Shown here piece after piece: positions 14,036 to 55,750 of a stretch of DNA of 64,000 nt. Position 1 is the first letter of the stretch. The number at the start of each line of letters is the position of its first letter. Made by a program: the position numbers and the translations under genes. The notes under the pieces are model-generated. The model saw nothing but the letters and a program-made list of their open reading frames with translations. It was not told the origin of the DNA and did not search any database. The stretch comes from Achromobacter spanius. Its GTDB lineage: Bacteria; Pseudomonadota; Gammaproteobacteria; Burkholderiales; Burkholderiaceae_B. The DNA is taken from NCBI RefSeq assembly GCF_029637605.1, contig NZ_CP121261.1:2728001-2792000 (forward strand), in the 5' to 3' direction.

Positions 14036-15634
14036 TCACGCCGTTGCCGCGTCTTCCAGGATCAGTTCCGCACCGCGCTCGGCCACCATCATGACGGCAG
14101 CCTGTGTGTTGCCGGACACCATCTTCGGCATCACCGACGCGTCCACCACGCGTAAGCCCGTCACGCCGTTCACGCGCAGCCTGACATCGGTGACGGCGGC
14201 GGCGTCGGAACCCATGCGGCAGGTGCCGATGGGGTGATAGATGGTCTGGCCATTGCGTCGCGCGAAGTCCAGCCATTGCTCGTCGCTTTCGACGGCGGCG
14301 CCAGGGCTGATTTCGGATTCGATGTAGCGTTGCATGGCCGGCTGCCCCACGATGCGGCGCGCGACCTTCATGCCGCCCACCAGGCTGTCGCGGTCGATCT
14401 GCGCCGACAGGAAGTTGGGCCGGATGGCGGGGCCGGCGGTGGGGTCAGAAGACTTGAGATGGATCGAGCCCACTGATTCCGGACGCAGTTGCGCCACGCC
14501 GATCGTCATGCCCGGCTGCCGGTCCAGAATGCGTTCGGCGGCATTGGCATAGCTGGCGTGCACGAAGAAAAACTGCACGTCGGGCGTGGGTAGATCCGGC
14601 GCGCTTTTCACAAAGCCATGCACCAGGCCCGTGCCCAAGGTCAAGATGCCGGTATGGCGCGTGTAGTACCGCGCCACCTGTTGCGCCAGGCGCCACCCGC
14701 GCGACATCTCGTTCAAGGTCACCGTGCCCTTCACTCGCCAGTTCATGCGCGTGGCGAAGTGGTCAATGTAGTTTTCACCCACTTGCGGCTGCGCGTGCAC
14801 CAGCGGGATGTTGAACGACTGCAGCAAGGCAGGGTCGCCGATGCCCGACAACTCCAGCAACTGCGGCGACTGCACCGCGCCCATGCACAGAATGGTTTCG
14901 CGGGCGGCACGCACCGTGTATTCCTGCCCGTTCTTGCGGTAGGTGACGCCTGCGCAGCGCTTGCCTTCGAACACCAGTCGCGTCACGTGTGCCCCACATT
15001 CCACGCGCAGGTTCTTGCGTGCGGCGGCGGGTTTCAGATAGCCGTCAACCACGCTCCAGCGTCGGCCCCGCCGCTGGAGCACCTGGTAGTAGCCCACGCC
15101 TTCCTGCTTGCCGCTGTTGTAGTCGGCGTTCAAGGATTGGCCGTCTTCCTGCGCGGCGCGCAGAAAGGCGTCGGACACGGGAAACCGCTCGGCCACTTCT
15201 TCCAGGTGCATGGGGCCATTTTTTCCGCGCGTGTCGCCCCCGGCTTCGTAATGCTCGATCTTGCGGAAGACGCGCTCGGCCTGCGCATGGCCCCAACCCG
15301 TCGCGCCCGCCGCTTCCCAGCCATCGTAATCCTGGGGCTGGCCGCGCACGTAGATCATGCCGTTGATCAAGGTGGAGCCGCCCACGCCCTTGCCGCGCGG
15401 CACCGCGATGATCCGGCCATAGACGTTGTCTTCGGGCTCGGTGGCAAAACGCCAGTTGTAGTCGGGATTCACCAGCAGCTTGGAGAAACCCGCCGGGATG
15501 GAAATCCACATGCTGCGTGCTTCTTGCCCGGCTTCCAGCATCAAGACCCGATGCTTGCCGTCGGCACTGAGCCGGTTGGCCAGGATGCAACCCGCCGTAC
15601 CGCCGCCCGCAATGATGAAATCGTAATCGCCCAT
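14036..15634 (-). CDS. GMC-family FAD-dependent alcohol oxidoreductase
   Basis: 532 residues. The N-terminal FAD-binding motif is DFIIAGGGTAGCILA, followed by the GMC signature stretch GKGVGGSTLINGMIYVRG (about residues 80-97). The C-terminal active-site region contains YHPIGTCRMG (His467) and GNTQAA (Asn509), the usual catalytic His/Asn pair. Family members oxidise primary or secondary alcohols such as choline, sugars or polyethylene glycol. It lies 63 bp after the shikimate-dehydrogenase-like gene and is probably the last gene of the left-pointing transketolase operon. The substrate is not predictable. Confidence 0.88.
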   Translation of the reverse strand: MGDYDFIIAGGGTAGCILANRLSADGKHRVLMLEAGQEARSMWISIPAGFSKLLVNPDYNWRFATEPEDNVYGRIIAVPRGKGVGGSTLINGMIYVRGQPQDYDGWEAAGATGWGHAQAERVFRKIEHYEAGGDTRGKNGPMHLEEVAERFPVSDAFLRAAQEDGQSLNADYNSGKQEGVGYYQVLQRRGRRWSVVDGYLKPAAARKNLRVECGAHVTRLVFEGKRCAGVTYRKNGQEYTVRAARETILCMGAVQSPQLLELSGIGDPALLQSFNIPLVHAQPQVGENYIDHFATRMNWRVKGTVTLNEMSRGWRLAQQVARYYTRHTGILTLGTGLVHGFVKSAPDLPTPDVQFFFVHASYANAAERILDRQPGMTIGVAQLRPESVGSIHLKSSDPTAGPAIRPNFLSAQIDRDSLVGGMKVARRIVGQPAMQRYIESEISPGAAVESDEQWLDFARRNGQTIYHPIGTCRMGSDAAAVTDVRLRVNGVTGLRVVDASVMPKMVSGNTQAAVMMVAERGAELILEDAATA

Positions 15635-15697: not shown

Positions 15698-16501
15698 TTA
15701 TTTGGCGGGCACCACGCCCAGCATTTCGGCCATCAGCGCGATCTGGCAAACCAGCATCGGCGCGCCGTAGTGCACCTTGCAGCCTTTCGCTTGCGCGGCC
15801 AGCAGCAGCGCGGTGTCCTTGGGTTGCATGATGACTTCGCAGACGAGCTGGTCCGGGGTCAGGCGTGCGGTATCCAGCGGCAGCGCGTCGCCTTCCTTCA
15901 TGCCCAGCGACGTGCCGTTCACGACGAGATCGTGCCCAGACGGGTCTGGCGTACCCACGGCGATGTTGGCCTCGGGATGCAGCGACAGGATGCGCGCCTT
16001 CAGGTCTTCGGCCTTGACGGGTGTGCGGTTGGCGATGGTCAGCCGCGACACGCCGGCCTGCACCAGCGCAAAGCCGATCGCGTTGGCCGCGCCGCCGGCG
16101 CCCGCCAGATAGGCGCTTTTGCCCTTCAGGTCCACGCCCGCGGTCTGCAAACCGCGCACGAAGCCTTCGCCGTCCAGCATATGGGCGGTGAGCTTGCCGT
16201 CGGCATCGCGGCGCACCACGTTGGCCGCGCCGATCTTTTGCGCCACCGGCGTCACCTCGTCCACCAGTTCCAGGATGGCAGTCTTGTGCGGCATGGTGAC
16301 GATGACGCCGCCCAGGTTCTCCAGGCGGCGCAGGCCTTCGACGACGGCGGGCAGGTTATCGGGCCGCGCATGAAACGGCACGCAGACGCCGTCATAACCC
16401 AATTGCGCGAACAACTCGTTCATGCGCTGCGGCGTCTTCACGTGATGGATGGGGTCGGCCAGGATGCCGAACAGGCGGGTGTTGCCGGTGATTTCCTTCA
16501 T
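15698..16501 (-). CDS. Shikimate-dehydrogenase-like (AroE/YdiB family) oxidoreductase
   Basis: 267 residues from the ATG at 16501, which has GGAG eight bases upstream; an ATG at 16525 is possible. The N-terminal substrate domain contains VTMPHK, the catalytic Lys motif, and the NADP domain has GAGGAANAIGFAL. It is probably not the housekeeping AroE: it sits in a catabolic operon between a split transketolase and a GMC oxidoreductase. The opening GNTRLFGILADPIHHVKTP departs from the SxS motif (SLSP or similar) that holds shikimate in true AroE. It more likely reduces or oxidises another polyol or cyclitol. Confidence 0.82.
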   Translation of the reverse strand: MKEITGNTRLFGILADPIHHVKTPQRMNELFAQLGYDGVCVPFHARPDNLPAVVEGLRRLENLGGVIVTMPHKTAILELVDEVTPVAQKIGAANVVRRDADGKLTAHMLDGEGFVRGLQTAGVDLKGKSAYLAGAGGAANAIGFALVQAGVSRLTIANRTPVKAEDLKARILSLHPEANIAVGTPDPSGHDLVVNGTSLGMKEGDALPLDTARLTPDQLVCEVIMQPKDTALLLAAQAKGCKVHYGAPMLVCQIALMAEMLGVVPAK

Positions 16502-16530
16502 GGGGGTCTCCGAGGTTTCAAGCATTGTCT

Positions 16531-17517
16531 TCAGGATGCCAGCAGTTCGCGGGCCACTTCACCGATGCCGGCCGCGTCCAGTTTGTAGTGCGCGTAGAGC
16601 GTGGTGGGCGGCGCGATCAGGCTGTATTCGTCGTAGATGCCGTGGCGGCGCAAGCGCGTGCCCGTACCGATGTCCGCCAGCACTTCGGCCACGGCTGACC
16701 CCAGCCCGCCCAGCACATTGTGCTCTTCCACCGTCATCATCAAGCCCGCCTGGCCGGCGGCCGCCAACACGGCGTCGCGGTCCAGGGGCTTGATGGTGGG
16801 CATGTCTATTACGCCTACCGACAGGCCGTCTGCGCGCAATTGCTCGGCGGCCGCCAGCGCGGCGTGCAGCGTGATGCCGCAAGCGATGATGTTTAGATCG
16901 CTGCCTTGCGAATGCACGATGGCGCGGCCGAATTCGAACGGCGCGCCATCTTCATAGACCTGCGGATCGCGGCCACGGCCGATGCGGAAGTAGATCGGTT
17001 CCGGCCAGTTCACCGACGCCTTGATGGCGGAGGCCAGTTGCGGGCCGTCGGCGGGTGACACGACCGTCAGGCCCGCCAGCGCGCGCATGGTGGAAATGTC
17101 TTCGGTGGCGTGGTGCGAGGTCCCGTAGAAGCCCAGGCTGATGCCGGTGTGGTGGCCGATCAAGCGCACGGGCAGCTTGGTGTAGGCCACGTCCATGCGG
17201 ATCTGCTCGCAGCACAACAGGCCTAGAAAAGATGCGAAAGTGGCCACGAACGGCATCATGCCCGTGGTGGCCAGGCCCGCTGCCGCCGACACCATGTTCT
17301 GCTCTGAAATGCCGAATTGGATGTAGCGGTCGGGGTAGGCCTGCGCAAAACGGTTCAGGCCATTGGAATATTGCAGGTCGGCCGAACCCGCCACGACCGG
17401 GTGCCCGGCCTGGGCCAACTCAATCAGCGCGTCGGAAAGATAAGACAGCCCGGGGTTGACCGCATTCAGGGCGCGGTACTGCCAGGAATCGGGAGAAAGA
17501 ACTTGTGCCTGTGCCAT
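16531..17517 (-). CDS. Transketolase C-terminal subunit
   Basis: 328 residues covering the pyrimidine-binding and C-terminal domains of transketolase. Landmarks are QFGISEQNMVSAAAGLA with the ThDP-activating Glu, GHHTGISLGFYGTSHHATEDI and TVEEHNVLGGLGSAVAE. With the 17518 product it forms a two-subunit (split) transketolase or DXS-like enzyme that moves two-carbon ketol units. The start is adjacent to the previous stop, giving tight coupling. Confidence 0.92.
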   Translation of the reverse strand: MAQAQVLSPDSWQYRALNAVNPGLSYLSDALIELAQAGHPVVAGSADLQYSNGLNRFAQAYPDRYIQFGISEQNMVSAAAGLATTGMMPFVATFASFLGLLCCEQIRMDVAYTKLPVRLIGHHTGISLGFYGTSHHATEDISTMRALAGLTVVSPADGPQLASAIKASVNWPEPIYFRIGRGRDPQVYEDGAPFEFGRAIVHSQGSDLNIIACGITLHAALAAAEQLRADGLSVGVIDMPTIKPLDRDAVLAAAGQAGLMMTVEEHNVLGGLGSAVAEVLADIGTGTRLRRHGIYDEYSLIAPPTTLYAHYKLDAAGIGEVARELLAS

Positions 17518-18375
17518 TCAGATCTCGCGGGAAAGAATTTCGTCGACGGCGCTTTGCGCGTCTTGCGGCGCCAGGTAGCCCAGGTGCCAGCCGGGCTCGG
17601 TTTCCATGTAGGACACGCCTTTGCCCTTGAGGGTCTTGGCTATCACGCAAGCCGGCTTGTCACGCGTGTCGTCCGCGCGCAGGCGGCGCAGCAGCGCGGT
17701 CAGCGCGTGCAGGTTATGGCCGTCGACCTCATGCACGTCCCAGCCGAACGCCTGCCACTTTTCCTTGAGCGATTCGACACCCATCACGTCATCGACCTTG
17801 CCATCCAACTGGTAACCATTGCGGTCGATGATGGCCACCAGGCGCGACAGCTTGTTGTGCGCGGCAAAGAGTGCCGCTTCCCACACCTGGCCTTCCTGCA
17901 TTTCGCCATCACCCAGCATCACGAAGACATTGAAATCGCGCTGGCTCATGCGGCCGCCCATCGCCATGCCGACGCCGTTGGACAGCGCGTGCCCGATCGA
18001 CCCCGAGCTGAAATCGATGCCCGGCACCTTGCTCATGTCGGGGTGGTCGCCCAGCGGGCTGCCCAGGCGCGTGTAGCCATCCAATAGCGCGTGGTCAATG
18101 AAGCCGTGGTCGGCCAGCACCGGAAACAGACCAACCGCCGCGTGGCCCTTGCCCATCAGGAAACGGTCGCGGTCCGGCCAATGCGGCTCGCCCGGGCGCA
18201 ATCGCATCACGTCGTAGTACAGCGACGCGAATATTTCCGCGCAAGAAAAGACCGAACTGTAATGCCCGACCTTGGCAATTTCAATCAACCTGATGGTCTC
18301 CAGCCGGATGTAACGGGCCTTTTCCCGCAGCATCGCGACTTCCCCCTGGGTGGGGGCCTCCTGGTCATGGCGCAT
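17518..18375 (-). CDS. Transketolase N-terminal subunit (ThDP-binding)
   Basis: 285 residues. Metal/ThDP motif GDGEMQEGQVWEA ... DRNGYQ (GDG and N) is intact, as are the catalytic histidine contexts GHYSSVFSCAE and GKGHAAVG. It is the first gene of the left-pointing operon. About 22 bp upstream of its start lies the AT palindrome shared with two other promoters in the region. No sugar kinase is encoded nearby, so the acceptor or donor may be non-phosphorylated, such as dihydroxyacetone or an aldehyde. Confidence 0.92.
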   Translation of the reverse strand: MRHDQEAPTQGEVAMLREKARYIRLETIRLIEIAKVGHYSSVFSCAEIFASLYYDVMRLRPGEPHWPDRDRFLMGKGHAAVGLFPVLADHGFIDHALLDGYTRLGSPLGDHPDMSKVPGIDFSSGSIGHALSNGVGMAMGGRMSQRDFNVFVMLGDGEMQEGQVWEAALFAAHNKLSRLVAIIDRNGYQLDGKVDDVMGVESLKEKWQAFGWDVHEVDGHNLHALTALLRRLRADDTRDKPACVIAKTLKGKGVSYMETEPGWHLGYLAPQDAQSAVDEILSREI

Positions 18376-18397: not shown

Positions 18398-18410
18398 ATA
18401 TATGATATAT
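18398..18410. promoter_or_regulatory. Predicted GntR/FCD operator, copy 1
   Basis: ATATATGATATAT is a perfect 13-bp palindrome around a central G. It lies in the 125-bp divergent region between the transketolase operon and the GntR regulator gene. The identical sequence in reverse orientation occurs at 23271 and a one-mismatch copy at 23057. The A/T run stands out sharply against the GC-rich background. Confidence 0.7.
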
Positions 18411-18500
18411 AATATACCCATTGCGCTCGGATTGGCTATCGCGGGCTAGAATTCACCCGGATTCAACCCGTTCCCTTCATTTCAGCAAGCCCGAAACGTC

Positions 18501-19205
18501 ATGCCCAGCCTTAAACCGGTAAAGAAAGAGAACCTCTCCGTCAGGGTCTACAACGAAATCCGCAATGCCCTGATCAATGGGCAGTACGAACCCGGCGAAC
18601 GCCTGATCATTGGCGAACTGGCCCAAGAGATGGGCGTATCCATCACGCCCGTGCGCGAAGCCATCTTCCGGCTCATCAGCGAACAGGGCCTGGAAATGCA
18701 GGCGGCCACGGCCGTCTACGTGCCTTACGTGAATTCGGAAAAGCTGCGTGAAATTCAGCAGATTCGTTTCCATCTGGAAGGCATGGGCGCGGCCGAGGCC
18801 GCGCAGCACATCACGCGCAAACAACTGGACAACCTGATCGCCCTGCAGAAGGACTTCATTTCCTGCACGTCGACCGACCCCAAGCGCGCCAGCTACCTGA
18901 ACAGAAAGTTCCACTTCGCCATCCTGGAAGCCAGCAACAAACCCATCTTGCGCGCCACCGTGGAATCGTTCTGGGTCATCACCGGCCCGATCCTGAAGGT
19001 GTTCCACGTCAAGACCGCCGGGCTGGACTATTCCGAAAACGAACACCGCCACGAAGCCGTGCTGCAAGCGCTGGAAGCGCGTGACTCCGAGGCCGCGCGC
19101 AGCGCCATCCAGGCCGACCTGGTCTGGGGCGGAAAAATCATGATCGACTGGCTGGTTGAACGCGAAAAAGAGCTTGATTACCGCCCTCCCGTGCCACGCA
19201 AATAG
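18501..19205 (+). CDS. GntR-family regulator, FCD subfamily
   Basis: 234 residues. The winged helix (about 12-75) contains the classic IRNALINGQYEPGERL and MGVSITPVREAIFRL segments. The all-helical FCD effector domain follows (about 85-220) with metal-ligand histidines in FHFAILEASN and HRHEAVL. It is likely an effector-responsive repressor of the surrounding catabolic genes and of itself. It is divergent from the transketolase operon and 9 bp upstream of the glycerol-dehydrogenase-like gene. The repeated AT palindrome is its probable operator. Confidence 0.9.
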   Translation: MPSLKPVKKENLSVRVYNEIRNALINGQYEPGERLIIGELAQEMGVSITPVREAIFRLISEQGLEMQAATAVYVPYVNSEKLREIQQIRFHLEGMGAAEAAQHITRKQLDNLIALQKDFISCTSTDPKRASYLNRKFHFAILEASNKPILRATVESFWVITGPILKVFHVKTAGLDYSENEHRHEAVLQALEARDSEAARSAIQADLVWGGKIMIDWLVEREKELDYRPPVPRK

Positions 19206-19214
19206 GAAGACGTC

Positions 19215-20285
19215 ATGCTGAAGATTTTTGGCGCGCCCAGCCGCTACATACAAGGCGCGGGCGCCCTGGACAGCCTGGGCCAATATGCCGCCCTGTTCGG
19301 GCACCGCGCGGCGCTGGTCATCGACGGCTATGTCCATGGCGTACTGGGAGCAAGAATCGAAGCCCTGTGCGCCGAGCACCACGTGGCGCTGGCGCCACTG
19401 ATCGTGGAAGGCGACCTGACGCCCGACCTGATCGCCAGCCTGCGCGCGCAGGCGGCCAACGCTGGCATCGACTTCGTGATCGCGGTGGGCGGCGGCAAGT
19501 CGCTGGACGCGGGCAAGGCGGTGGCGAAGTCGTCGCACTGCCACCTGATCACGGTGCCGACCGTGGCGTCCAACGACGCGCCCACCAGCAAGAACTACGT
19601 GCTGTACGACGCGCATCACAACCTCCTGGCGGTGGAACACATGTTGTTCAACCCCACGATCGTGCTGGTTGATACGGCCATCATCGCCACCGCGCCCGTG
19701 CATTTTTTCCGCGCCGGCCTGGGCGACGCCGTGTCGAAGAAATTCGAGGCCGAGCAATGCCAGCGCAACGGCGGCAAGAACATGTACGACGGCGCCCCGC
19801 TGCTGACGGCGCAACTGATCGCCGACGGCTGCTTGCGCACGCTGCTGGCCGACGGCGTGGACGCCGTGGCGGCTGCCGGCACGGGCCAGCCCACGCCCGC
19901 GTTCGAGCGCGTGGTGGAAGCGATGATCCTCATGAGCGGTCTCGGTTTTGAAAGCGGCGGCCTGTCCATCGCGCATGCGCTCACGCGCGGGCTGCCCAAG
20001 ATCGGCGGCGTGGCCACCGCGCTGCATGGCTTGCAGGTTGCGGTCGGCCTGCTCGTGCAACTGGATCTGGAACAGCGCAACGACGGCATGCTGGCGGACT
20101 TGACCCAGTGGTACGCCCAGGTCGGCCTGCCCACCACGCTGCGCGAGCTGGGCGCGGCCGACATGCCCAGCGACGCGGACTTGGCGCTGGCGGCCGAGCT
20201 GACCCTGAAAGCCCGCCATGCCGCCAACTTCGATCGCCCGCTGGATGTCGCCACGCTTGCCGACGCACTGCGCCGCCACGCCTGA
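19215..20285 (+). CDS. Glycerol dehydrogenase-like iron-type alcohol dehydrogenase
   Basis: 356 residues. NAD-binding GGGKSLDAGKAVA and metal ligands in AGLGDAVSKKFEAE (Asp), LSIAHALTRG (His) and TALHGLQVA (His) match the GldA group. GldA interconverts glycerol and dihydroxyacetone; relatives act on other vicinal diols. It directly follows the GntR gene (9-bp gap), so the pair is one transcript. A product such as dihydroxyacetone could feed the kinase-less split transketolase encoded across the divergent promoter. This is inference. Confidence 0.88.
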   Translation: MLKIFGAPSRYIQGAGALDSLGQYAALFGHRAALVIDGYVHGVLGARIEALCAEHHVALAPLIVEGDLTPDLIASLRAQAANAGIDFVIAVGGGKSLDAGKAVAKSSHCHLITVPTVASNDAPTSKNYVLYDAHHNLLAVEHMLFNPTIVLVDTAIIATAPVHFFRAGLGDAVSKKFEAEQCQRNGGKNMYDGAPLLTAQLIADGCLRTLLADGVDAVAAAGTGQPTPAFERVVEAMILMSGLGFESGGLSIAHALTRGLPKIGGVATALHGLQVAVGLLVQLDLEQRNDGMLADLTQWYAQVGLPTTLRELGAADMPSDADLALAAELTLKARHAANFDRPLDVATLADALRRHA

Positions 20286-20323
20286 ACGCGGCGGCGCGGC
20301 GCCTGCCTGATCAGAACGCCAAC

Positions 20324-21259
20324 TCAGAACGCCACGTTGTCCCGGCCTTTCAGGCCGAGCTTGGCGCGCGCTTCGTCAGGCGTGGCCACTTCCAGGTTCA
20401 GCGCTTCGACAATGGTGCGGATGCGTTCAACCTGCAAACGGTTGGACTCGGCCAATTGCCCCGGCCCGATCCACAGCGAATCTTCCAACCCCACCCTCAC
20501 GTTCGAGCCCATCGCCGCGCCGATGGTGGCCAGCTGCATCTGATTGCGGCCGGCGCCCAGGATGGACCATTCGTAGTCATCGCCGAACAGGCGGTCGGCC
20601 GTGCGCTTCATGTGCATCAGGTCTTCCGGATGCGGGCCGATGCCGCCCAGGATGCCGAACACCGACTGGATGAAAGGCGGCGCCTTGACCAGCCCGCGGT
20701 CAACAAAATGCGCCAGGTTGTAGAGGTGACTGATGTCGTAGCACTCGAACTCGAAGCGCGTGCCGTTGGCGTTACCCAGCGTCAGGATGGATTCGATGTC
20801 CTGGTACGTGTTGCGGAAGATCAGCGAACGGCTGTTCTCAAGATGCTCCCTTTCCCAGTCGTGCTTCAGCTCTTTGAAGCGATCCAGCATCGGGAACAAG
20901 CCAAAGTTCATCGACCCCATGTTCAACGACGCCAGCTCCGGCTGGAACGTCGTGGCCGGGCGCATGCGTTCTTCCACCGTCATGTGTGGGCTGCCGCCGG
21001 TGGTGATGTTGATGATGGCGTCCGTCTCGTTCTTGATGCGCTCAAGAAACGGCTTGAACAGCGCCGGGTCTTGCGACGGCTTGCCCGTTTCGGGATCACG
21101 CGCATGCAGGTGCAGCACGGCCGCGCCCGCCTGGGCCGCGCCGATGGCGGCGTCGGCAATCTCGTCGGCCGTGACCGGCAGGTGCGGCGACATGCTGGGT
21201 GTGTGGATCGCGCCCGTCACGGCGCAGGTAATGACGACTTTCTGTTTGGGCTTAGCCAT
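20324..21259 (-). CDS. BKACE-family beta-keto acid cleavage enzyme
   Basis: 311 residues. The BKACE (DUF849) pattern is clear: KVVITCAVTGAIHTP, the metal-binding VLHLHARDPETGKP (His-x-His), NITTGGSP, and GLEDSLWIGPGQ near the C-terminus. The family condenses a beta-keto acid with acetyl-CoA to give acetoacetate and a new CoA ester; known substrates include 3-keto-5-aminohexanoate and dehydrocarnitine. Its start overlaps the end of the dehydrogenase gene by 8 bp, a direct hint that the dehydrogenase makes its beta-keto substrate. Confidence 0.9.
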   Translation of the reverse strand: MAKPKQKVVITCAVTGAIHTPSMSPHLPVTADEIADAAIGAAQAGAAVLHLHARDPETGKPSQDPALFKPFLERIKNETDAIINITTGGSPHMTVEERMRPATTFQPELASLNMGSMNFGLFPMLDRFKELKHDWEREHLENSRSLIFRNTYQDIESILTLGNANGTRFEFECYDISHLYNLAHFVDRGLVKAPPFIQSVFGILGGIGPHPEDLMHMKRTADRLFGDDYEWSILGAGRNQMQLATIGAAMGSNVRVGLEDSLWIGPGQLAESNRLQVERIRTIVEALNLEVATPDEARAKLGLKGRDNVAF

Positions 21260-22232
21260 GCTTGTCTCCGTCCTGTTGTTTGTGGCGCATCAAGCGCATC
21301 AGTTTTTCATCGCGCCAGAAGCGGCGCTTGGCAAGGTCTTCCTGCGGCAGCAGGCCGCGGCGTTCGTCCGCCAGGGCCCCCACCAGCGCGGCATCCCAGG
21401 CCACGCATTCGGTTTGGTCGGCCCCAATGGACTGATACAGCCCGCCGTAGCGCGAGCAATAGTCCGCGATGCCGCCGGGCGCGTTCAGGTCGATGGTTTC
21501 GAACGGCCCCATGAACGACCAGCGCAGGCCCAGCCCGTCCTTGACCGTCGTGTCGATGTCCTCGGCACTGGCGATACCTTCCTTGGCCAGCCGGAAGGCC
21601 TCGTGCAACAAGGCGCCTTGCAGGCGGTTCAAGATGAAGCCTTCGATTTCACGGCGCAGCCGCACGGGCTTTTGCCCGATGGCCGTCATGATGTCACTGG
21701 CGCGTTGCAACGCGTCCGCGCTGGTCCACGGCGCCGGGCAGAGCTCCACCACGGGAATCAAATACGGCGGGTTGACGGGATGCGCGACCAGGCAACGGTG
21801 GCGTCCCGGCAGGTGCTCGGTGAACTGGCTGGCGGGAATGCTGGAAGTGGAACTGCCAATGACGGCGTCGGGCTCGGCCGCCGCATCCAGCGCCGAGAAC
21901 AGCGCGCGCTTGATCTCAAGCTTTTCGGGCGAGTTTTCCTGGATATAGCACGCGCCCTTGACGGCATCGGCCAGGCTGTCGGCGATATGGACGCGGCCGA
22001 TGATGGCGTCGGCATCCGTCAGCAAACCCTGAGCTTGCAGTTCGTGCAATTGCTGCAAAATCAGCGCGCGGGCTTCGGCCAGCATGGTTGCGTTGACGTC
22101 GTGAAGGCGCACCTGCCAACCCTGGCGGGCGAACACGATGGCCCAGCCCTGCCCGATCAGGCCCGTTCCGATGATGGCGGCAGTATGGGCAACGGGTTGG
22201 GCCGTGGATTGGACTACTGGATCGGCGCCCAT
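21252..22232 (-). CDS. 3-hydroxyacyl dehydrogenase family (carnitine/gulonate dehydrogenase-like)
   Basis: 326 residues. N-terminal Rossmann motif AIIGTGLIGQGWAIVFA, the SSTSSIPASQF segment and the catalytic-His region VAHPVNPPYLIPVVE are present. The C-terminal part has GPFETIDLNAPGGIADYC, shared with L-carnitine dehydrogenase and lambda-crystallin/L-gulonate 3-dehydrogenase. It should oxidise a beta-hydroxy acid with NAD to the beta-keto acid cleaved by the adjacent BKACE. There is no hot-dog thioesterase extension and no other carnitine gene nearby, so the substrate is open. Confidence 0.87.
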   Translation of the reverse strand: MGADPVVQSTAQPVAHTAAIIGTGLIGQGWAIVFARQGWQVRLHDVNATMLAEARALILQQLHELQAQGLLTDADAIIGRVHIADSLADAVKGACYIQENSPEKLEIKRALFSALDAAAEPDAVIGSSTSSIPASQFTEHLPGRHRCLVAHPVNPPYLIPVVELCPAPWTSADALQRASDIMTAIGQKPVRLRREIEGFILNRLQGALLHEAFRLAKEGIASAEDIDTTVKDGLGLRWSFMGPFETIDLNAPGGIADYCSRYGGLYQSIGADQTECVAWDAALVGALADERRGLLPQEDLAKRRFWRDEKLMRLMRHKQQDGDKHG

Positions 22233-23014
22233 CAGTAGAGCTTCTGCGTAAAGCCGTCGATCACCAGCGCCTGGCCCGTCACGCTGCGGGCTGCCTCGCT
22301 GGCGTTGAACAACACCGTGTTGGCGATGTCGCGCGCGGTGACCATGCGGCCCAGCACGGCCTGGTCTTCATACTGCGCGGCAATTTCTTCAACCGGGCGT
22401 CCCAGCGTATTGGCCTTGGCGGCGATGACGGCGCGGATGCGCGGGCCTTCGACGGCGCCCGGCAAGATGGCGTTCACCCGGATCCCGTGCGGCCCAAGTT
22501 CAATCGCCAGGGACTTGGTGAAACCGATCACCGCCCACTTGGACGCCGAATACACCGAACGCCCGGCAAAGCCCAGATGGCCGGCGGCGGACGACAGGTT
22601 GATCATCACGCCGGCTTTGGATTCTTTCAGCATCGGGATGGCCTGGCGCGCGCACAGGAACTGGCCGGTAATGTTGACGGCCAGCGTGCGGTCCCAATCG
22701 GCCTTCGACAGCGTTTCGACGTAGCCGGTCGGGCCTGCCACGCCGGCGTTGTTGATCAGAATATCCAGCCCACCCAATTTCTGCTTGACGGCGGCAAAGA
22801 GCGCGCCCACGCTGTCTTCGTCCGACACGTCCGCCACCATGGCCTGCACGCCGGGCAGCTCGGACGGGATGGCGGCCACGCGCGCCTCGTTCACATCGCA
22901 CACGAAAACCGTTGCGCCGGCGTGGCGGAAAACCTTGGCCATTTCCAGGCCCAGACCATCCGCGCCAGCGGTGATCAAGACCCGTTTTCCGGCGAAATCG
23001 ACTTCCTCGAACAT
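22232..23014 (-). CDS. SDR-family NAD(P)-dependent oxidoreductase
   Basis: 260 residues, classical SDR. The cofactor motif is TAGADGLGLEMA, followed by NNAGVAG, the catalytic Ser in NLSSAAGH and the YSASK Tyr/Lys pair. It is the first gene of the SDR-dehydrogenase-BKACE operon and overlaps the next gene by one base. A copy of the AT palindrome lies about 45 bp upstream of the start. It probably performs the first oxidation or a stereochemical step on the catabolised alcohol. Confidence 0.9.
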   Translation of the reverse strand: MFEEVDFAGKRVLITAGADGLGLEMAKVFRHAGATVFVCDVNEARVAAIPSELPGVQAMVADVSDEDSVGALFAAVKQKLGGLDILINNAGVAGPTGYVETLSKADWDRTLAVNITGQFLCARQAIPMLKESKAGVMINLSSAAGHLGFAGRSVYSASKWAVIGFTKSLAIELGPHGIRVNAILPGAVEGPRIRAVIAAKANTLGRPVEEIAAQYEDQAVLGRMVTARDIANTVLFNASEAARSVTGQALVIDGFTQKLY

Positions 23015-23056
23015 GCTGTTGTCTCCTGGTTCTTATGGAAAAGCGCGTGTTTGATG

Positions 23057-23069
23057 ATATACGATATAT
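23057..23069. promoter_or_regulatory. Predicted GntR/FCD operator, copy 2
   Basis: ATATACGATATAT differs from the 18398 palindrome at one position and lies upstream of the SDR-dehydrogenase-BKACE operon. Confidence 0.6.
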
Positions 23070-23270
23070 GACGCCGGGCAATAATTTCTGGCATGATGAG
23101 ACGCTCTGATCGCACGGAAAAGACGCCGTCCGCCTGGCGGAATTTTGCGCTTTATTTCTCATACTATCGGCCGCTAAGGCTTTATTCATGCGGTTTTAGG
23201 GAATTCCCCGATTCGGCCCGCCGCAGCCCCCACTAGAATCCAATTCGGGGTTTTTGCACCTGGCCGGCAC

Positions 23271-23283
23271 ATATATCATATAT
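23271..23283. promoter_or_regulatory. Predicted GntR/FCD operator, copy 3
   Basis: ATATATCATATAT is the exact reverse complement of copy 1. It lies 62 bp upstream of the importer binding-protein start, where it would overlap the promoter. The 331-bp divergent region 23015-23345 therefore holds one operator near each promoter; I see no gene in it. Confidence 0.7.
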
Positions 23284-23345: not shown

Positions 23346-24545
23346 GTGTTCAAGTTCAACAAGATTATTTTGGCGCTGGGCGTGTGCGGCGCACTGGCAA
23401 GTGGCACCGCCGCAGCCGACATGAAAGTGGGCGCCCTCTTCCCGTTCAGCGGCGCGCTTGCGCTTCTGGGGCAAGAAAGCTATCGCGGGCTGGAACTGGC
23501 CGTCAACGAAATCAACGCCGCGGGCGGCGTCAACGGAGAGAAGATCGAACTCATCAAGGCGGACGCCGTGGACCCGACACAAGCCGTGTCGGAAACCAAG
23601 CGCCTGATCTCGTCCAACGTGGTAGGCGTGTTCGGCAGCTACGCCTCGGGCATCTCGTACGCGGCCACGCCCGTGACCGAACTGGCCGGCGTGCCGTATT
23701 TCGAACTGGGCGCCACCGCCCACAAGATCACCACGCGCGGCTACAAGTACCTGTTCCGCAGCAACCCCAATACGGCGCTGTACGGCGTGTCGGTCGTGAA
23801 CGCGCTGCATGACACCATCGCCCCGGGCATGGGCCTGAACCCCAAGGACATCAAGATCGGCATCATCCACGAAGACGGGCCGTATGGCACCGACGTGGCG
23901 GCCACCGAGAAAAAGCGCGCGCAGGAACTGGGTTACACCGTGGCTGAAGTGCTGCCCTACTCGGCCAAGACGGTGGACCTGTCGTCGTTGATCCTGCGCT
24001 TGAAGGGCGCCAAGGTCGACGTTGTGCTGCAAACGGCCTACCAGAACGACGCCATCCTGTATTTCAGCCAGGCACGCGCGGCGGGCTTCAAGCCCAAGGT
24101 CGTGATCGGCGCGGGCGGCGGTTATTCGCTGGCCGACACCGCCAAGGCTGTGGGTGCCGACATGAACGGTGTGTTCGACCTGGACTTTCCCCAAGCGTCC
24201 ATCAATCCGGCTGGCGCGCCGGGCCTGGACAAATTCCTGGCCGCCTACAAAGCCACCTACAAGAGCGACCCGCAGTCCGGCCACAGCCTGACCAACTACG
24301 TCGGCGCCAAGGCCTTCTTTGAAGCCATCGGCAACGCCAAGTCCACCGACAAGGACAAGATCCGCGCCGCGGTACTGGCCTACAAGAAGCCGGCCGGCCA
24401 AACGGCCAACGGCTGGGGGTTCGACTTCGGTGAAGACGGCCAGAACAACGCCTCGACGTTCTACGTCATGCAGTGGCAGGACGGCAAGCTCGTCACCATT
24501 GCGCCCAGCAACCTCGCACTTGGCAAGCCCGTCTTCAATAAGTAA
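23346..24545 (+). CDS. Branched-chain amino acid-type ABC transporter substrate-binding protein
   Basis: 399 residues with a GTG start, chosen because AAAGGAGCG lies just upstream. Signal peptide to about residue 22 (ALASGTAAA), then the Leu/Ile/Val-binding (type I periplasmic) fold: MKVGALFPFSGALALLGQ, LAVNEINAAGGVNG and GVFGSYASGISYAATPV. Many members of this family bind non-amino-acid ligands such as aromatic acids, ureas or amides. It heads a six-gene unit with permeases, ATPases and two oxidoreductases, under the shared AT palindrome. The ligand should be the substrate of the surrounding pathway. Confidence 0.92.
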   Translation: MFKFNKIILALGVCGALASGTAAADMKVGALFPFSGALALLGQESYRGLELAVNEINAAGGVNGEKIELIKADAVDPTQAVSETKRLISSNVVGVFGSYASGISYAATPVTELAGVPYFELGATAHKITTRGYKYLFRSNPNTALYGVSVVNALHDTIAPGMGLNPKDIKIGIIHEDGPYGTDVAATEKKRAQELGYTVAEVLPYSAKTVDLSSLILRLKGAKVDVVLQTAYQNDAILYFSQARAAGFKPKVVIGAGGGYSLADTAKAVGADMNGVFDLDFPQASINPAGAPGLDKFLAAYKATYKSDPQSGHSLTNYVGAKAFFEAIGNAKSTDKDKIRAAVLAYKKPAGQTANGWGFDFGEDGQNNASTFYVMQWQDGKLVTIAPSNLALGKPVFNK

Positions 24546-24666: not shown

Positions 24667-25533
24667 ATGGATATCTTCATTCAACTGGTCATCAATGGCC
24701 TGTTGCTGGGCGGCGCTTACACCATCATCAGCCTGGGGCTGACGTTGATCTTCGGCGTCGTGCGCGTCGTGAACTTCGCGCATGGCGAGTTCCTGATGGT
24801 TGGCATGTACCTGGTTTACCTGATCGCCGCGCAATTCGGCGTCCACCCTTATGTGGGCCTGGTGCCGGTGGCGGTGATTCTGTTCGCGCTGGGTGCGCTG
24901 ACGCAAAAGGGCATCATCCAGCCTCTGTTGAACGCCGACCAGCACATCCAGATTTTCGCCACGGTGGGCGTGTCCACCATCCTGCTGAACCTGGCCCTGG
25001 TGATCTTCGGCGCCAATGTGTACCGCGCGCCGGTGGATCTGGGCACGAACGCCATCAATGTGGGCAATTACTCGATGGTGACCGGCCAACTGATCACCTT
25101 CGTCATCGGCATCAGCCTGGCGATATTGCTGCATCTGTTCATGCATCGCACCTATCTGGGCCGCGCGCTGCGCGCGGTGGCCCAGCATCGCTATGCCGCC
25201 ACGCTGATGGGCGTGAACGTCAACAACGTCTACGCCATCGCCTTCGGCCTGGGCACGGCCTTCGTCGGCATCGCGGCCGGCTTGCTGGCGCCGCAGTATC
25301 CGGTGTTTCCCACGGTGGGCACGTACTTCGTGCTGACCGCCTTCGTGATCGTGGTGCTGGGCGGACTGGGCAGCCTGTATGGCGCCGTGGCCGGCTCCAT
25401 GATCATCGGCATCGTCGATACGCTGGCCGGTTATTACATCGCCCCCGACCTGAAAGAGGTCGTCTATTTCGGGATCTTCCTCTTGATCCTTGTCCTGCGA
25501 CCGAACGGCCTGTTTGGCGTCGGCACAGAGTGA
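24667..25533 (+). CDS. Branched-chain amino acid-type ABC permease, LivH-like
   Basis: 288 residues, about eight membrane helices. The LivH family pattern VNFAHGEFLMVGMY and the C-terminal GGLGSLYGAVAGSMIIG are clear. It pairs with the LivM half of the next, fused protein. AAGAGGT precedes the start. Confidence 0.93.
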   Translation: MDIFIQLVINGLLLGGAYTIISLGLTLIFGVVRVVNFAHGEFLMVGMYLVYLIAAQFGVHPYVGLVPVAVILFALGALTQKGIIQPLLNADQHIQIFATVGVSTILLNLALVIFGANVYRAPVDLGTNAINVGNYSMVTGQLITFVIGISLAILLHLFMHRTYLGRALRAVAQHRYAATLMGVNVNNVYAIAFGLGTAFVGIAAGLLAPQYPVFPTVGTYFVLTAFVIVVLGGLGSLYGAVAGSMIIGIVDTLAGYYIAPDLKEVVYFGIFLLILVLRPNGLFGVGTE

Positions 25534-25555
25534 TCAGAGCCACAAGGAGCGAGAC

Positions 25556-27337
25556 GTGTTTCCCGACTTTCGAAGCCCCAAAGCCTACGTCAGCCTGATT
25601 CTGCTGATTGTGATGTTCCTCGTGCCCGTCGTCATGGGCACGCCTTTCTGGACCAACCTGTTTGTACTGCTGTTCGTCTTCGCCTCGCTGTCCGTGGCGT
25701 GGAATATCGTGGGCGGCTATGCGGGCCAGCTTTCGCTGGGCCATGCGGTGTTCTACGGCATTGGCGGCTATACCGCCACGCTGCTGACGCAGAACTTCGG
25801 CATATCGCCGTGGTTCGGCATGCTGGCAGGCGCTGCGATTTCGGCCGCCGTGGCCATCCTGATCAGCTATCCCACCTTGCGGCTACGCGGCCCGTTCTTC
25901 GCGCTGGCCACGATCGCCATCCTGGAAGTGGTGCGCCTGCTGGTCATCCACGAAGAAAGCTGGACGGGCGGCTCCAGCGGCATCAGCCTGCCGCTGAACA
26001 TCGGCTGGGCGTGGATCGTTTTCCGCGAAAAGCTCAACTACGTGATCATCGCGTTCGGACTGTTCCTGTTCGTGACGTGGGCGTCGTGGGCGATACGCAA
26101 GTCACGCCTGGGCCATTACCTGATCGCCATCCGCGAACGCGAAGACGCCGCGCTGGCCGTGGGTATCCATACCGTACGGGTGAAGATCATCGCGGCCGTG
26201 GTGTCCGCCATGCTGACCAGCATCATCGGCACTTTCCACATCACCTACCTGACCTTCGTGGATCCCAGCTCGGCGTTCTCGCTGGAGCTGTCGATCCAGG
26301 TGGCCATGTTCGCCTTGATCGGCGGGCTGGGCACCGTGGCCGGCCCCATCGCGGGCACCTTCCTGGTGCTGCCCATCGCGGAACTGGCGCGCGGCTGGTT
26401 GTCCAGCGTGGGCAACGGCATGCACGGGCTGATCTACGGCCTGATCCTGGTGGCGGTGGTGCTGACCATTCCGCGCGGGCTGGCCGGTGCGTTCGGCCCC
26501 GCCATCGAACGCGCACTGGCGCGCCTGCCTTATCTGGGCACGCCGCGAAAGAAGCGGCAATTGGCGGACGAACTGCGCCTGCACAGCGCCACCCGGTCCG
26601 AGCAGCCGGTACTGAAAGCCGACAAGCTGTTCAAGAGCTTTGGCGGCCTGCGCGCCACCAACGACGTATCGCTGACGCTGAACCAGAACGAAATCCTGGG
26701 CATGATCGGGCCGAACGGCGCGGGCAAGACCACGGTGTTCAACCTGCTGTCGGGCTTTCTGTCGCCGGACAAGGGCGATATTTCGATGCTGGACGCGGAC
26801 GGCAACTGGGTCACGTGCAAGACGCCGGACGAGTTCGCGCACAAGGGGCTGGGCCGCACGTTCCAGATCGCCAAGCCGTTTACCGGCCTGACGGTGCTGG
26901 AAAACATCATGCTGGGCGCGTTCATCCGCACGTCGAACCGTGACGAGGCCGAGCAGATTGCGCTGAAGGTCGCCGAGCAGACGGACTTGACCAAGTCCCT
27001 GAACACCGAAGCGCGCAGCCTGACGGTGGGCGGCATGAAGCGTCTGGAGATCGCCCGCGCGCTGGCGATCAAGCCGCGCATCCTGCTGCTGGACGAGGTG
27101 ATGGCGGGACTGAACCCGACCGACATCGAGAAGTCCATCCAGATGATCCGGCGCATCCGCGATTCCGGCGTGTCGGTGCTGCTGATCGAACACATGATGC
27201 AGGCCACGATGGCGCTGTCCGACCGCATCATCGTCTTGAACGAAGGTGGCGTGCTGGTCACCGGCGCGCCGAAGGATGTGGTCGAGAACCCCGCCGTCAT
27301 CGAGGCGTATTTGGGCAAGGAGTACCAGGATGCTTAA
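25556..27337 (+). CDS. LivM-LivG fusion: ABC permease joined to ATPase
   Basis: 593 residues from a GTG at 25556 with AAGGAGCGAGAC upstream. Residues 1-325 are a LivM-type permease (GGYAGQLSLGHAVFYGIGGY, GGLGTVAGPIAGTF). After a charged linker (GTPRKKRQLADELRL), residues 355-593 are a LivG-type ATPase: Walker A GPNGAGKTT, Walker B LLLDEVMAGL, H-loop LIEHMMQ. The signature motif reads LTVGGMKRLEIARA, not LSGGQ. Fused LivMG proteins are known in Burkholderiales. The next gene starts inside its last codons, an 8-bp overlap. Confidence 0.93.
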   Translation: MFPDFRSPKAYVSLILLIVMFLVPVVMGTPFWTNLFVLLFVFASLSVAWNIVGGYAGQLSLGHAVFYGIGGYTATLLTQNFGISPWFGMLAGAAISAAVAILISYPTLRLRGPFFALATIAILEVVRLLVIHEESWTGGSSGISLPLNIGWAWIVFREKLNYVIIAFGLFLFVTWASWAIRKSRLGHYLIAIREREDAALAVGIHTVRVKIIAAVVSAMLTSIIGTFHITYLTFVDPSSAFSLELSIQVAMFALIGGLGTVAGPIAGTFLVLPIAELARGWLSSVGNGMHGLIYGLILVAVVLTIPRGLAGAFGPAIERALARLPYLGTPRKKRQLADELRLHSATRSEQPVLKADKLFKSFGGLRATNDVSLTLNQNEILGMIGPNGAGKTTVFNLLSGFLSPDKGDISMLDADGNWVTCKTPDEFAHKGLGRTFQIAKPFTGLTVLENIMLGAFIRTSNRDEAEQIALKVAEQTDLTKSLNTEARSLTVGGMKRLEIARALAIKPRILLLDEVMAGLNPTDIEKSIQMIRRIRDSGVSVLLIEHMMQATMALSDRIIVLNEGGVLVTGAPKDVVENPAVIEAYLGKEYQDA

Positions 27338-28034
27338 GGTGTCGAACCTGACGTCGGGCTACGGCAAGAGCCAAGTGCTCAACGGCTTGAACTTCGAGGT
27401 CAACGCGGGCGAAATCGTGACCCTGATCGGCGCGAACGGGGCGGGCAAGACCACCACCCTGAAAACGCTGTGCGGCGTCATTCCCACGCTGCAAGGCAAG
27501 GTGGAATTCGAAGGCCGCGACCTCACCAATCACAACTCCTACGACATCGTGGACGCTGGCATCACGATGATTCCCGAAGGCCGCCAGCTGTTTCCGCACT
27601 TCACGGTGAAAGACAACCTGCTGATGGGTTCGTACAAACGCGCCGCGCGCCCCATCGTGCAGCAGAAGCTGGACGAGGTGCTGCGCATTTTCCCGCGCGT
27701 GAAAGAACGCCTGTCGCAGTACGCCGGGTCCTTGTCGGGCGGTGAACAGCAAATGGTGGCCATCGCGCGCGGCATGATGGCCGACCCGAAGCTGCTGGTG
27801 TTCGACGAACCGTCGCTGGGCTTGTCGCCGCTGCTGGTGCAGCAGATGTTCGACATCATCCGCGACGTTACCTCGCATGGCGTGACGGTGCTGCTGGTCG
27901 AGCAAAACGTGTTCCGCACCTTGCGTCTGGCCGACCGTGGCTACGTGCTGGAAAACGGCACCATCGTGCGCACCGGCACGGGCGCCGAACTGCTTGGCGA
28001 CCCACACATAAAAAAGGCCTATCTGGGCCATTGA
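27330..28034 (+). CDS. Branched-chain amino acid-type ABC ATPase, LivF-like
   Basis: 234 residues. Walker A GANGAGKTT, signature LSGGEQQMVAIARG, Walker B LLVFDEPSLGLSP and the LivF motif MIPEGRQLFPHFTVKDNL are intact. It completes the importer. The start at 27330 overlaps the LivMG fusion gene; the frame is open further upstream but without family sequence. Confidence 0.93.
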   Translation: MLKVSNLTSGYGKSQVLNGLNFEVNAGEIVTLIGANGAGKTTTLKTLCGVIPTLQGKVEFEGRDLTNHNSYDIVDAGITMIPEGRQLFPHFTVKDNLLMGSYKRAARPIVQQKLDEVLRIFPRVKERLSQYAGSLSGGEQQMVAIARGMMADPKLLVFDEPSLGLSPLLVQQMFDIIRDVTSHGVTVLLVEQNVFRTLRLADRGYVLENGTIVRTGTGAELLGDPHIKKAYLGH

Positions 28035-28051
28035 TAACCAGGATTTTCCCT

Positions 28052-29047
28052 ATGACCCTACGCTGCACATTCATCGACCATGGCAAGGGCGGCGCGCCCG
28101 ATTGCATGCAGGTCGCCCAACGCGACATGGAAGCCCCCACCGGGCGCCAGGTGCTGATCGAAGTGGCCTACGCCGGGGTCAACCGCCCCGACGTGCTGCA
28201 ACGTTCGGGCTCGTATCCGCCGCCGCCCGGCGCGTCGCCGTATCTTGGGCTGGAAGTGTCCGGCACCATCATCGGCGTCGGCCCCGACGTGACCGCGTGG
28301 AAGACGGGCGACACAGTCTGCGCGCTGACGCCCGGCGGCGGCTACGCCCAGTATTGCCTGGCCGACGAGCGCCACTGCCTGCCCGTGCCACGCGGCATGG
28401 ACCTGCTGACGGCCGCGGCCATTCCCGAAAACTACTTCACGGTCTGGACCAATGTGTTCGACCGCGCGCGCCTGGCGTCCGGCGAAAAATTCCTGGTGCA
28501 TGGCGGCTCCAGCGGCATCGGGCTGACAGCCATTCAATTGGCGCGCGCCTTTGGCGCCGAAGTCTGGACCACCGTGGGCAACCCCGCCAAGGCCGAGGCC
28601 TGCCTGAAAGCCGGCGCGCATCACGCCGTGCTCTACCGCGACACCGACTTCGAAGCCGAGGTGCGCCAGGCGACCCAAGGCGTGGGTGTGGACGTCATCC
28701 TGGATATGGTGGGCGGGTCTTACATCAACAAGAACATCAGGCTTCTGGCCGTGAACGGGCGGCTGGTGCAGATTGCGTTCCTTGAAGGCAGCAAGGCCGA
28801 GATCGACGCCCTGCCCATCATGACCAAGCGGTTGCAATTCACGGGTTCCACGCTGCGCCCGCGCTCGGACGATGACAAGGGCGCCATCGCGCAGGCGCTG
28901 GCCACGAAGGTGGTGCCGCTGATGGAACAAGGGCAATGCCTGCCGCTGATCCACGAGGTTTTCCCGCTGGCGGATGCGCCCCGCGCGCATGCCTTGATGG
29001 AAAGCAGCCAGCACATCGGCAAGATCATGTTGAAGGTGAGTGCATGA
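28052..29047 (+). CDS. NAD(P)H:quinone oxidoreductase-like MDR protein
   Basis: 331 residues, zinc-free medium-chain reductase of the quinone oxidoreductase (PIG3/QorA) group: VAYAGVNRPDVLQRSG, VHGGSSGIGLTAIQLARAFG for the nucleotide fold, DVILDMVGG, and GRLVQIAFLEGSKA. It is encoded 17 bp after the importer ATPase gene and overlaps the next SDR gene by four bases. It probably reduces an enone or quinone-like intermediate of the imported compound. Confidence 0.87.
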   Translation: MTLRCTFIDHGKGGAPDCMQVAQRDMEAPTGRQVLIEVAYAGVNRPDVLQRSGSYPPPPGASPYLGLEVSGTIIGVGPDVTAWKTGDTVCALTPGGGYAQYCLADERHCLPVPRGMDLLTAAAIPENYFTVWTNVFDRARLASGEKFLVHGGSSGIGLTAIQLARAFGAEVWTTVGNPAKAEACLKAGAHHAVLYRDTDFEAEVRQATQGVGVDVILDMVGGSYINKNIRLLAVNGRLVQIAFLEGSKAEIDALPIMTKRLQFTGSTLRPRSDDDKGAIAQALATKVVPLMEQGQCLPLIHEVFPLADAPRAHALMESSQHIGKIMLKVSA

Positions 29048-29823
29048 GTGCGGACATGAAGGCTCGCTTCGATGGCCAGGTCGCCATCGTGACGGGCGCG
29101 GTAGGCGGTATCGGCTCGGCCATCGTCGAAGGTTTTCTGGCGGAAGGCGGGCGCGTGGGCCTGATCGACTTCAACGCGCAGGCCGGCGCGGCCTACGAAC
29201 AGGCCCTAAGAAAGCGGGGCCATGACGTGGCGTTCGTGCCCGCCGACGTGGCGCACTACGAGCAATGCCAGGCCGCCTATGACCGCATCACGGCCGAACT
29301 GGGCGCGGCAACAATTCTGGTGAACAACGTGGGCATTTCCCCCAAGACCGACGGCCGCGCGCTGAAGGTCTGGGAGATGCCGCCGGGCGAATGGGACAAG
29401 GTCGTGTCGGTGAACCTGAACAGCGTGTTCTACATGACGCACCTGGCCACGCCGCACATGGTCAAGCTGCGCCAGGGGCGCGTGGTCAATATGTCGTCGG
29501 TGGCGGGCAAGGCGTACTGCGACATCGTGGCGGCGCATTACGCGGCTACCAAGGCCGGGCTGATCGGCCTGACCCGGCATTGGGCCGCCGAGCTGGGTGA
29601 GTTCGACGTCACGGTCAATGGGCTGGCGCCCGGGCGCATCAGCACGCCGCTGCTGAAAAGCGTGCCCCAGGAAATCAACGACGCCGTCGCGCAAGTCACG
29701 GCACTGCGCCGCCTGGGCACCCCGGAAGAGGTGGCCGACGCCTGCCTGTTCTTCGCGTCCGATCAGGCCCGCTTCGTCACCGGCCAGGTATTGGATGTGG
29801 CGGGCGGCTGGCTGATGACCTGA
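29044..29823 (+). CDS. SDR-family oxidoreductase
   Basis: 259 residues; the ATG overlaps the previous stop (ATGA). TGAVGGIGSAIV, NNVGISP, the Ser in VNMSSVAGK and HYAATKAGL (Tyr/Lys) give a full classical SDR active site. It is the last gene of the importer operon and presumably takes part in the same pathway as the 22232 SDR, though the two differ clearly in sequence. Confidence 0.9.
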   Translation: MSADMKARFDGQVAIVTGAVGGIGSAIVEGFLAEGGRVGLIDFNAQAGAAYEQALRKRGHDVAFVPADVAHYEQCQAAYDRITAELGAATILVNNVGISPKTDGRALKVWEMPPGEWDKVVSVNLNSVFYMTHLATPHMVKLRQGRVVNMSSVAGKAYCDIVAAHYAATKAGLIGLTRHWAAELGEFDVTVNGLAPGRISTPLLKSVPQEINDAVAQVTALRRLGTPEEVADACLFFASDQARFVTGQVLDVAGGWLMT

Positions 29824-55559: not shown

Positions 55560-55750
55560 AGAAGTTCCGGGGATCAGATGGCCGCGTGGTGCCAGAGCTG
55601 GGCGACGCACTGATTGGAGGCCAGTATAGCTGTGCCCTGCATTTGGCCTGGATTAGCACCCTTCAAAATAGTTGCCTTACAACTTAACAATGATGTAATT
55701 TAGCGCAAACGACGAATTGCAGCCATGACTGCCACCGGAGACAAATCAAG

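Follow-up and report, generated by a model that had tools for sequence, protein, structure and literature searches.

An all-AT palindrome in three promoters of an Achromobacter spanius catabolic and uptake cluster is the probable operator of the cluster's own GntR/FCD regulator

A short palindrome that recurs in neighbouring promoters raises the question of which protein reads it and which genes are thereby placed under common control. In a 64,000-nucleotide stretch of the Achromobacter spanius genome (contig NZ_CP121261.1, positions 2,728,001 to 2,792,000; hereafter the window, by whose first base all positions are counted) three near-identical 13-bp palindromes surround a gene for a GntR/FCD regulator (gntR), and a sequence-only reading of this DNA had proposed that they define the regulon of that gene. 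All three are present, at 18398, 23057 and 23271, and each lies in a promoter region as that reading had placed it. On the comparative evidence given below, they are very probably the binding sites of the cluster's own GntR regulator. We consider it highly probable that the gntR product, acting through the three operators, represses four operons until a compound of the pathway releases it; the 4+2+3+6 = 15 genes that gene spacing assigns to these operons agree with the earlier estimate of about 15 linked genes. Mechanistically, a GntR dimer would read two ATATAT arms across a free G/C centre, the bound regulator would hold down the four operons of the catabolic and uptake cluster, its own included, and binding of a pathway compound to the FCD domain would release the regulator and turn the operons on.

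The first site lies between the divergent genes tktN (transketolase N-terminal subunit; start 18375, minus strand) and gntR (start 18501, plus strand). The other two share the 331-bp intergenic region between an SDR dehydrogenase gene (start 23014, minus strand) and the gene for the substrate-binding protein (SBP) of a branched-chain-type ABC importer (start 23346, plus strand), each being closer to its own gene: site 2 stands 42 bp before the former and site 3 62 bp before the latter. The exact pattern ATATAYGATATAT occurs three times in the genome (6,474,880 bases, one contig), all in the cluster and within 4.9 kb, compared to about 0.005 sites expected per genome by a first-order Markov estimate; the many copies at unrelated places that the sequence-only reading had named as evidence against itself were not seen. 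When up to two mismatches are allowed, the window has five matches against 0.06 expected (64 kb, 64% GC) and the whole genome 27, of which eight are the cluster's own sites counted on both strands. The remaining 19 compare with 13 obtained for a reversed control pattern, so that weak sites are not far above background and no clear sign of a wider regulon was found in this genome. The best further match genome-wide has one mismatch and lies within an open reading frame (ORF; window 54242-54254).

The palindrome and the regulator gene are closely coupled in their distribution. Among 250 genomes of the family, 67 carry the exact motif and 52 a gntR ortholog (at least 78% identity, the next best match below this set having 55%). 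The motif is found in all 52 genomes with an ortholog versus 15 of the 198 without one, five of these 15 being 0.7-0.8-Mb genomes of one genus. The corresponding Fisher p-value (~1e-40 over the 250 genomes) overstates independence because 29 of the 52 ortholog genomes come from one genus, and the agreement in presence and absence of motif and ortholog within the genera g13, g15, g20 and g36 is the better evidence. In a sample of 399 genomes from the order the motif occurs in 41, including all five that have a close ortholog (G000, G003, G005, G045, G052). The nomination of gntR as the likely regulator gains support from this distribution, and also from six minimal clusters (L116-L119, L124, L125) in which gntR sits between two operators some 880-940 bp apart.

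Conservation upstream of orthologous genes, suggested earlier as a check, turned out to be strong. It was followed in 48 named loci around gntR relatives (L numbers), taken from Achromobacter, Bordetella, Pollutimonas and allies, one Comamonas and one Rhizobiales metagenome-assembled genome. The 13-mer is positioned directly upstream of gntR in 47 of the 48, exactly in 45 and with one mismatch in two (L117, L118). The SBP gene start is visible in 39 of 47 loci and all 39 have an exact upstream copy; six loci have the importer operon inverted with its copy about 11 kb away (in stretches L131-L136 the site begins 70-78 bp before the SBP gene), and the remaining two (L090, L105) end before the SBP start. 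Counted over SBP upstream rows, an exact operator 3 is present in 47 of 48. Mean column conservation within the operator is 0.99 before gntR (48 sequences) versus 0.64 outside it, and 0.98 before SBP (40 sequences) versus 0.71. DNA looping between operators 2 and 3 was considered. They are 214 bp apart in the window and 211-214 bp apart in other two-site loci, except for 202 in L107 and 154 in L111; close kinship alone could explain this near-constant spacing.

The sites follow their promoters through rearrangement, that is, through the inversion just mentioned, the loss of nearby genes, and a reshuffle in Comamonas (L114), where the importer operon is found at the opposite flank of the tkt operon, its own copy retained. 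The tkt genes were not found by tblastn in the stretch examined of ten of 47 loci, one being Achromobacter anxifer, and there the site precedes a shikimate-dehydrogenase-like match by 57-196 bp and heads the shikimate-dehydrogenase-like and GMC oxidoreductase genes. The transketolase genes, which had been counted as members, thus have site 1 before them in the window but are not a fixed part of the regulon. In L147, which holds a 55%-identical ortholog, overlapping one-mismatch copies occur at two places, in the interval from gntR to the shikimate-dehydrogenase-like gene and ahead of the SBP gene.

The arrangement of the promoters bears on the sign of control. Alignment of the regions before gntR and the importer gene yields two conserved islands, the operator and a TAGAAT box. 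On the gntR side 46 of 48 rows have TAGAAT or TAAAAT at 46-51 bp downstream of where the operator starts (L116 and L119 lack it). On the importer side 39 of 48 rows have the TAGAAT box at 35-37 bp upstream of the operator, although among these the distance from operator to start codon varies from 67 to 178 bp; the nine importer rows without a box are L114, L131-L136, L139 and L147. We infer that the box is a -10 element, in which case the importer operator would cover about +25 to +37 from the presumed start, a position that suggests a repressor. On the tkt side a promoter scan gave TAGCCA-16-TATATT, its -10 abutting the operator (two matches with the same first hexamer, against 0.3 expected). 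Repression is the better guess because the importer operator is downstream of a candidate -10 and because a -10-like sequence lies next to the operator on the tkt side. The same regulator might instead activate some or all of the operons from the same operators, which we regard as improbable, if deserving of some weight. The gntR site, at about -55 from the candidate start and at the fixed 46-51 bp from the TAGAAT box, is suitably placed for an activator, the -35 elements look weak, and E. coli McbR is reported as an activator of rsd and rmf in a passage of PMC6134199. The importer site, 35-37 bp downstream of its candidate -10, is a hard place for an activator, however, and the positions of the sites differ among the three promoters.

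It could also be asked whether gntR is the binder at all. There are 42 FCD matches in this genome, relatives include FCD paralogs with an AT palindrome in or close to the promoter of the paralog itself, and the related loci were not surveyed for further regulator genes; another FCD regulator, or a nucleoid protein, might therefore occupy the sites. We hold this to be very unlikely, because the motif tracks this particular gntR ortholog genome by genome, because the absence of further exact copies in the genome means that no other FCD promoter carries one, and because a nucleoid protein has no need for exact copies at a fixed distance from a -10 box. We give next to no credence to the idea that the palindromes are merely AT-rich core-promoter DNA in the form of divergent -10 boxes. 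It is true that TATAAT and TATATT occur within site 1 and that TATCAT overlaps site 2, but the same 13 bases recur at three promoters, 12 or 13 of the 13 positions are kept before gntR in 47 loci of several genera while the flanks turn over, site 3 lies away from the conserved TAGAAT box, and presence is linked to the gntR ortholog.

Repression of all four operons by the gntR product nevertheless has a number of observations to contend with. Three genomes, G028 (g28) and G071 and G134 (both g40), carry exact copies and no ortholog, and at the level of the order 36 of 394 genomes without a close ortholog have at least one exact copy; 34 of these 36 have a single one, which implies that single exact copies do arise through chance or in other ways. 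No such site is seen in the stretches examined of a 57%-identical relative (L129, the exception among the 48 loci) and a 46%-identical one (L151). Operator 2 is less conserved than the others: at up to one mismatch it occurs in 28 of the 37 loci that hold the SDR gene, one-mismatch forms included, leaving nine without a copy, and its column conservation is 0.78 versus 0.57 outside. In six of the nine the SDR operon follows the importer operon with the same orientation and may for that reason need no promoter of its own, and in the other three (L112, L113, L115) the SDR operon and the divergent importer share a region with only one site. The -35 elements are weak and the one assigned to operator 2 is, by inspection, not kept in relatives, which makes the promoter placement approximate. 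Finally, with the operator at about -55 from the candidate start of gntR, the effect of the regulator on its own gene may be weak or opposite in sign. Beside this we note that in L111 a one-mismatch copy persists at the place of operator 2 (L111:12072), the genes of the SDR operon not having been found in that locus.

Exact copies were also encountered outside the cluster in relatives. In two genomes of one genus (L144:1702 and L145:1846; G109 and G087) the 13-mer occupies a divergent promoter between genes that by inspection resemble a 2-hydroxyacid dehydrogenase and a class-III aminotransferase, a possible extension of the regulon, and in G047 (L138:1189) a copy lies near a gene resembling, again by inspection, a HutC-type GntR regulator.

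How a GntR/FCD protein could read a word of A and T only can be approached from its helix-turn-helix (HTH) domain. The gntR product matches PF00392 (53.4 bits) and PF07729 (69.3 bits), both over cut-off. According to passages of PMC4494728, the consensus operator of the FadR subfamily contains TKGT/ACMA boxes, Arg35 and Arg45 of FadR read G, and Arg28, Ser40 and Gly59 are linked with G/C and Pro40 with its avoidance. The cluster's sites have no such boxes, their arms reading ATATAT/ATATAC in the window and, with few exceptions, in relatives as well. In the alignment HTH positions 28, 38, 40 and 59 correspond to Gly38 or a gap, Ile48, Pro50 and Ala69 of the gntR product, from which both G-reading arginines of FadR (positions 28 and 38), usual in the subfamily though no strict mark of it, are absent; the recognition helix, SITPVREA, is identical to that of E. 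coli McbR.

The idea that residue 38 by itself determines the AT word was considered and rejected on a survey of FCD paralogs (70 loci of other FCD genes, 28 of them classified by helix pattern; L250-L260 left out). All three Glu38 paralogs have ATATATAATATAT, with one mismatch, about 130 bp upstream of the estimated start, and nothing under three mismatches was found in eight Arg38, 11 Gln38, three Leu38, two Val38 and one Ala38 paralogs. As Val38 paralogs lack the AT word and Glu38 paralogs have it, a hydrophobic residue 38 alone is no predictor. FCD paralogs with the helix GVSETPVREA (L203, L206, L211), which have ATATATAATATAT about 130 bp upstream, are a sister group that shares the AT word, with a central A. 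A 32%-identical FCD paralog in G134 (L143:1521-1559; EVSVTPVREA) has two copies of ATATACGATATAT 19 bp apart before its own gene, which adjoins genes that by inspection are DapA-like and FAD-oxidoreductase-like.

The operator appears to be built in steps, G/C bases recurring every 7 bp between AT hexamers. At site 1 the conserved block extends to ATATAT-G-ATATAT-A-ATATAC (18398-18417), three hexamers with a 7-bp period, and the third hexamer is nearly as conserved as the other two; the added segment (18411..18417) shares bases with a -10-like TATATT that reads on the minus strand, in the tktN direction. L147 carries the three-hexamer forms ATACATCATATATGATATAC and AAATATGATATATCATATTT, and L152, with a 45%-identical relative, has ATATATGATGCATCATATAT, possibly another, at a distance of about 1.1 kb on the upstream side of the regulator gene. 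Suvorova and colleagues (PMC4494728) describe, for many GntR-family sites, additional half-sites that are weaker and lie 7-12 nt from the centre. In operator 1 the third hexamer has its centre 10.5 nt from that of the operator and is probably such an extra half-site. We only tentatively suggest, and rather doubt, that this FCD lineage has exchanged the GT/AC code for all-AT hexamers at 7-bp steps, giving graded, NanR-like binding of several dimers without the NanR extension. Since ATATAT is self-complementary, overlapping dimer sites could be built by adding hexamers. If true, the operators of one regulator family would shift between a 13-bp odd palindrome and a 20-bp three-hexamer form.

Compared with known systems, this is a familiar local GntR/FCD regulon whose distinctive trait is the AT-only, hexamer-stepped operator. 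LldR, PdhR and GlcC, local repressors of the FadR subfamily named in a passage of PMC4494728, likewise combine winged-helix and FCD domains. As here, such repressors have a short palindrome in their own divergent promoter, and pairs of sites within a single divergon, each site lying close to its own operon, are described there for the subfamily (PMC4494728, in part) in a manner resembling sites 2 and 3. The difference is in the word: the TKGT/ACMA consensus contains GT/AC, whereas the ATATAT arms do not. The best solved relative of the gntR product is E. coli McbR (YncC; PDB 4p9f, E 1.1e-29). Its best NCBIfam match, NF008504 (PRK11414), which we take to stand for McbR, scores 141.8 bits against a cut-off of 225, making it a relative and not an equivalog. 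In one passage of PMC13343897 a K-12 site of McbR from chromatin immunoprecipitation sequencing is said to include an ATATAT motif; the likeness thus rests on sequence for the gntR cluster and on that passage for McbR. The cluster differs in having its three exact sites in one place, and, with dihydrofolate as the McbR ligand reported in that source (PMC13343897, in part), in that no folate gene was recognised among its 15 genes.

NanR, with its (GGTATA)3 operator, is a GntR-type repressor with an operator downstream of the polymerase site, where three dimers bind the tandem hexamers, and its cooperativity needs a 32-residue N-terminal extension (passages of PMC8012715), whereas here the Pfam GntR match starts at residue 13. 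The comparison thus leaves three hexamers at site 1, spelt differently from those of NanR, and no long N-terminal extension in the gntR product. The word of BioR differs too, as does its pathway, presumably that of biotin. With TTATMKATAA, BioR is a fellow exception in the FadR subfamily, its word being AT-rich and without GT/AC (PMC4494728); BioR and NanR are both known exceptions to the TKGT/ACMA consensus. Literature searches with spellings of the 13-mer, for GntR/FCD proteins with ATATAT palindromes and for an Achromobacter GntR transketolase regulon found no publication on this regulon.

The palindromes provide a predicted switch for an unassigned cluster of 15 catabolic and uptake genes found in Achromobacter, Bordetella and related bacteria, so that the substrate of the cluster can be sought and its inducer screened for with a single reporter. 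They also offer a tractable GntR/FCD case, of value for working out how the family reads DNA, in which the helix has lost its arginine-guanine contacts and the operator its guanines.

The four operons are tktN-tktC-shikimate-dehydrogenase-like-GMC, gntR-iron-containing alcohol dehydrogenase, SDR-HCDH (3-hydroxyacyl-CoA-dehydrogenase-like)-BKACE (beta-keto acid cleavage enzyme), and the importer operon, which also includes a quinone-oxidoreductase-like gene and a second SDR gene (Table 1). Families were assigned by profile matches for ten genes and by inspection for the last five of the importer operon.

Table 1. Predicted operators, candidate promoter elements and cluster genes in the window.
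Feature	Position	Strand	Basis or remark
Operator 1, ATATATGATATAT	18398..18410	strandless	predicted; divergent tkt/gntR promoter region
Spacer A and third hexamer ATATAC of operator 1	18411..18417	strandless	column conservation
TAGAAT box, candidate -10 of gntR	18447..18452	+	49 bp from operator start
Operator 2, ATATACGATATAT	23057..23069	strandless	predicted; 5' of SDR operon
TAGAAT box, candidate -10 of importer operon	23234..23239	+	37 bp upstream of operator 3
Operator 3, ATATATCATATAT	23271..23283	strandless	predicted; 5' of ABC importer operon
GMC oxidoreductase, choline-dehydrogenase-like	14036..15634	-	profile match
Shikimate-dehydrogenase-like protein	15698..16525	-	profile match, under NCBIfam cut-offs
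Transketolase C-terminal subunit (tktC)	16531..17517	-	profile match
Transketolase N-terminal subunit (tktN)	17518..18375	-	profile match; first gene of its operon
GntR/FCD regulator (gntR)	18501..19205	+	Pfam GntR and FCD; co-occurrence; proposed binder of all three operators
Iron-containing alcohol dehydrogenase, glycerol-dehydrogenase-like	19215..20285	+	profile match; downstream of gntR
BKACE	20324..21259	-	NCBIfam NF053538 over cut-off
HCDH-like protein	21252..22232	-	NF004783 over cut-off
SDR dehydrogenase	22232..23014	-	profile match; first gene of SDR-HCDH-BKACE operon
Branched-chain-type ABC importer, SBP	23346..24545	+	profile match
ABC permease, LivH-like	24667..25533	+	ORF; named by position and sequence inspection, not by profile
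Fused ABC permease-ATPase, LivM/LivG-like	25490..27337	+	ORF; named by inspection, not by profile
ABC ATPase, LivF-like	27246..28034	+	ORF; named by inspection; true start probably further in
Quinone-oxidoreductase-like protein	28031..29047	+	ORF; named by inspection
Second SDR dehydrogenase, last importer-operon gene	28936..29823	+	ORF; named by inspection; true start probably further in

The SDR-HCDH-BKACE operon (window 20324-23014) resembles the last phloroglucinol steps of Clostridium scatologenes, in which PGR, TfD and TAL are the counterparts of the trio (PMC10470551, in part), and the name of the NF053538 family is 3,5-dioxohexanoate cleaving enzyme. Phloroglucinol as the substrate is a lead only, given that no cyclohydrolase was noticed among the cluster genes (no search aimed at one was made) and that eight loci (L111, L116-L119, L123-L125) lack the trio. 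Elsewhere in the window, at 54774-55610, a second GntR/FCD regulator is encoded, which belongs to the 42 FCD matches of the genome and has the helix GVSRPVVREAL and an arginine at position 38.

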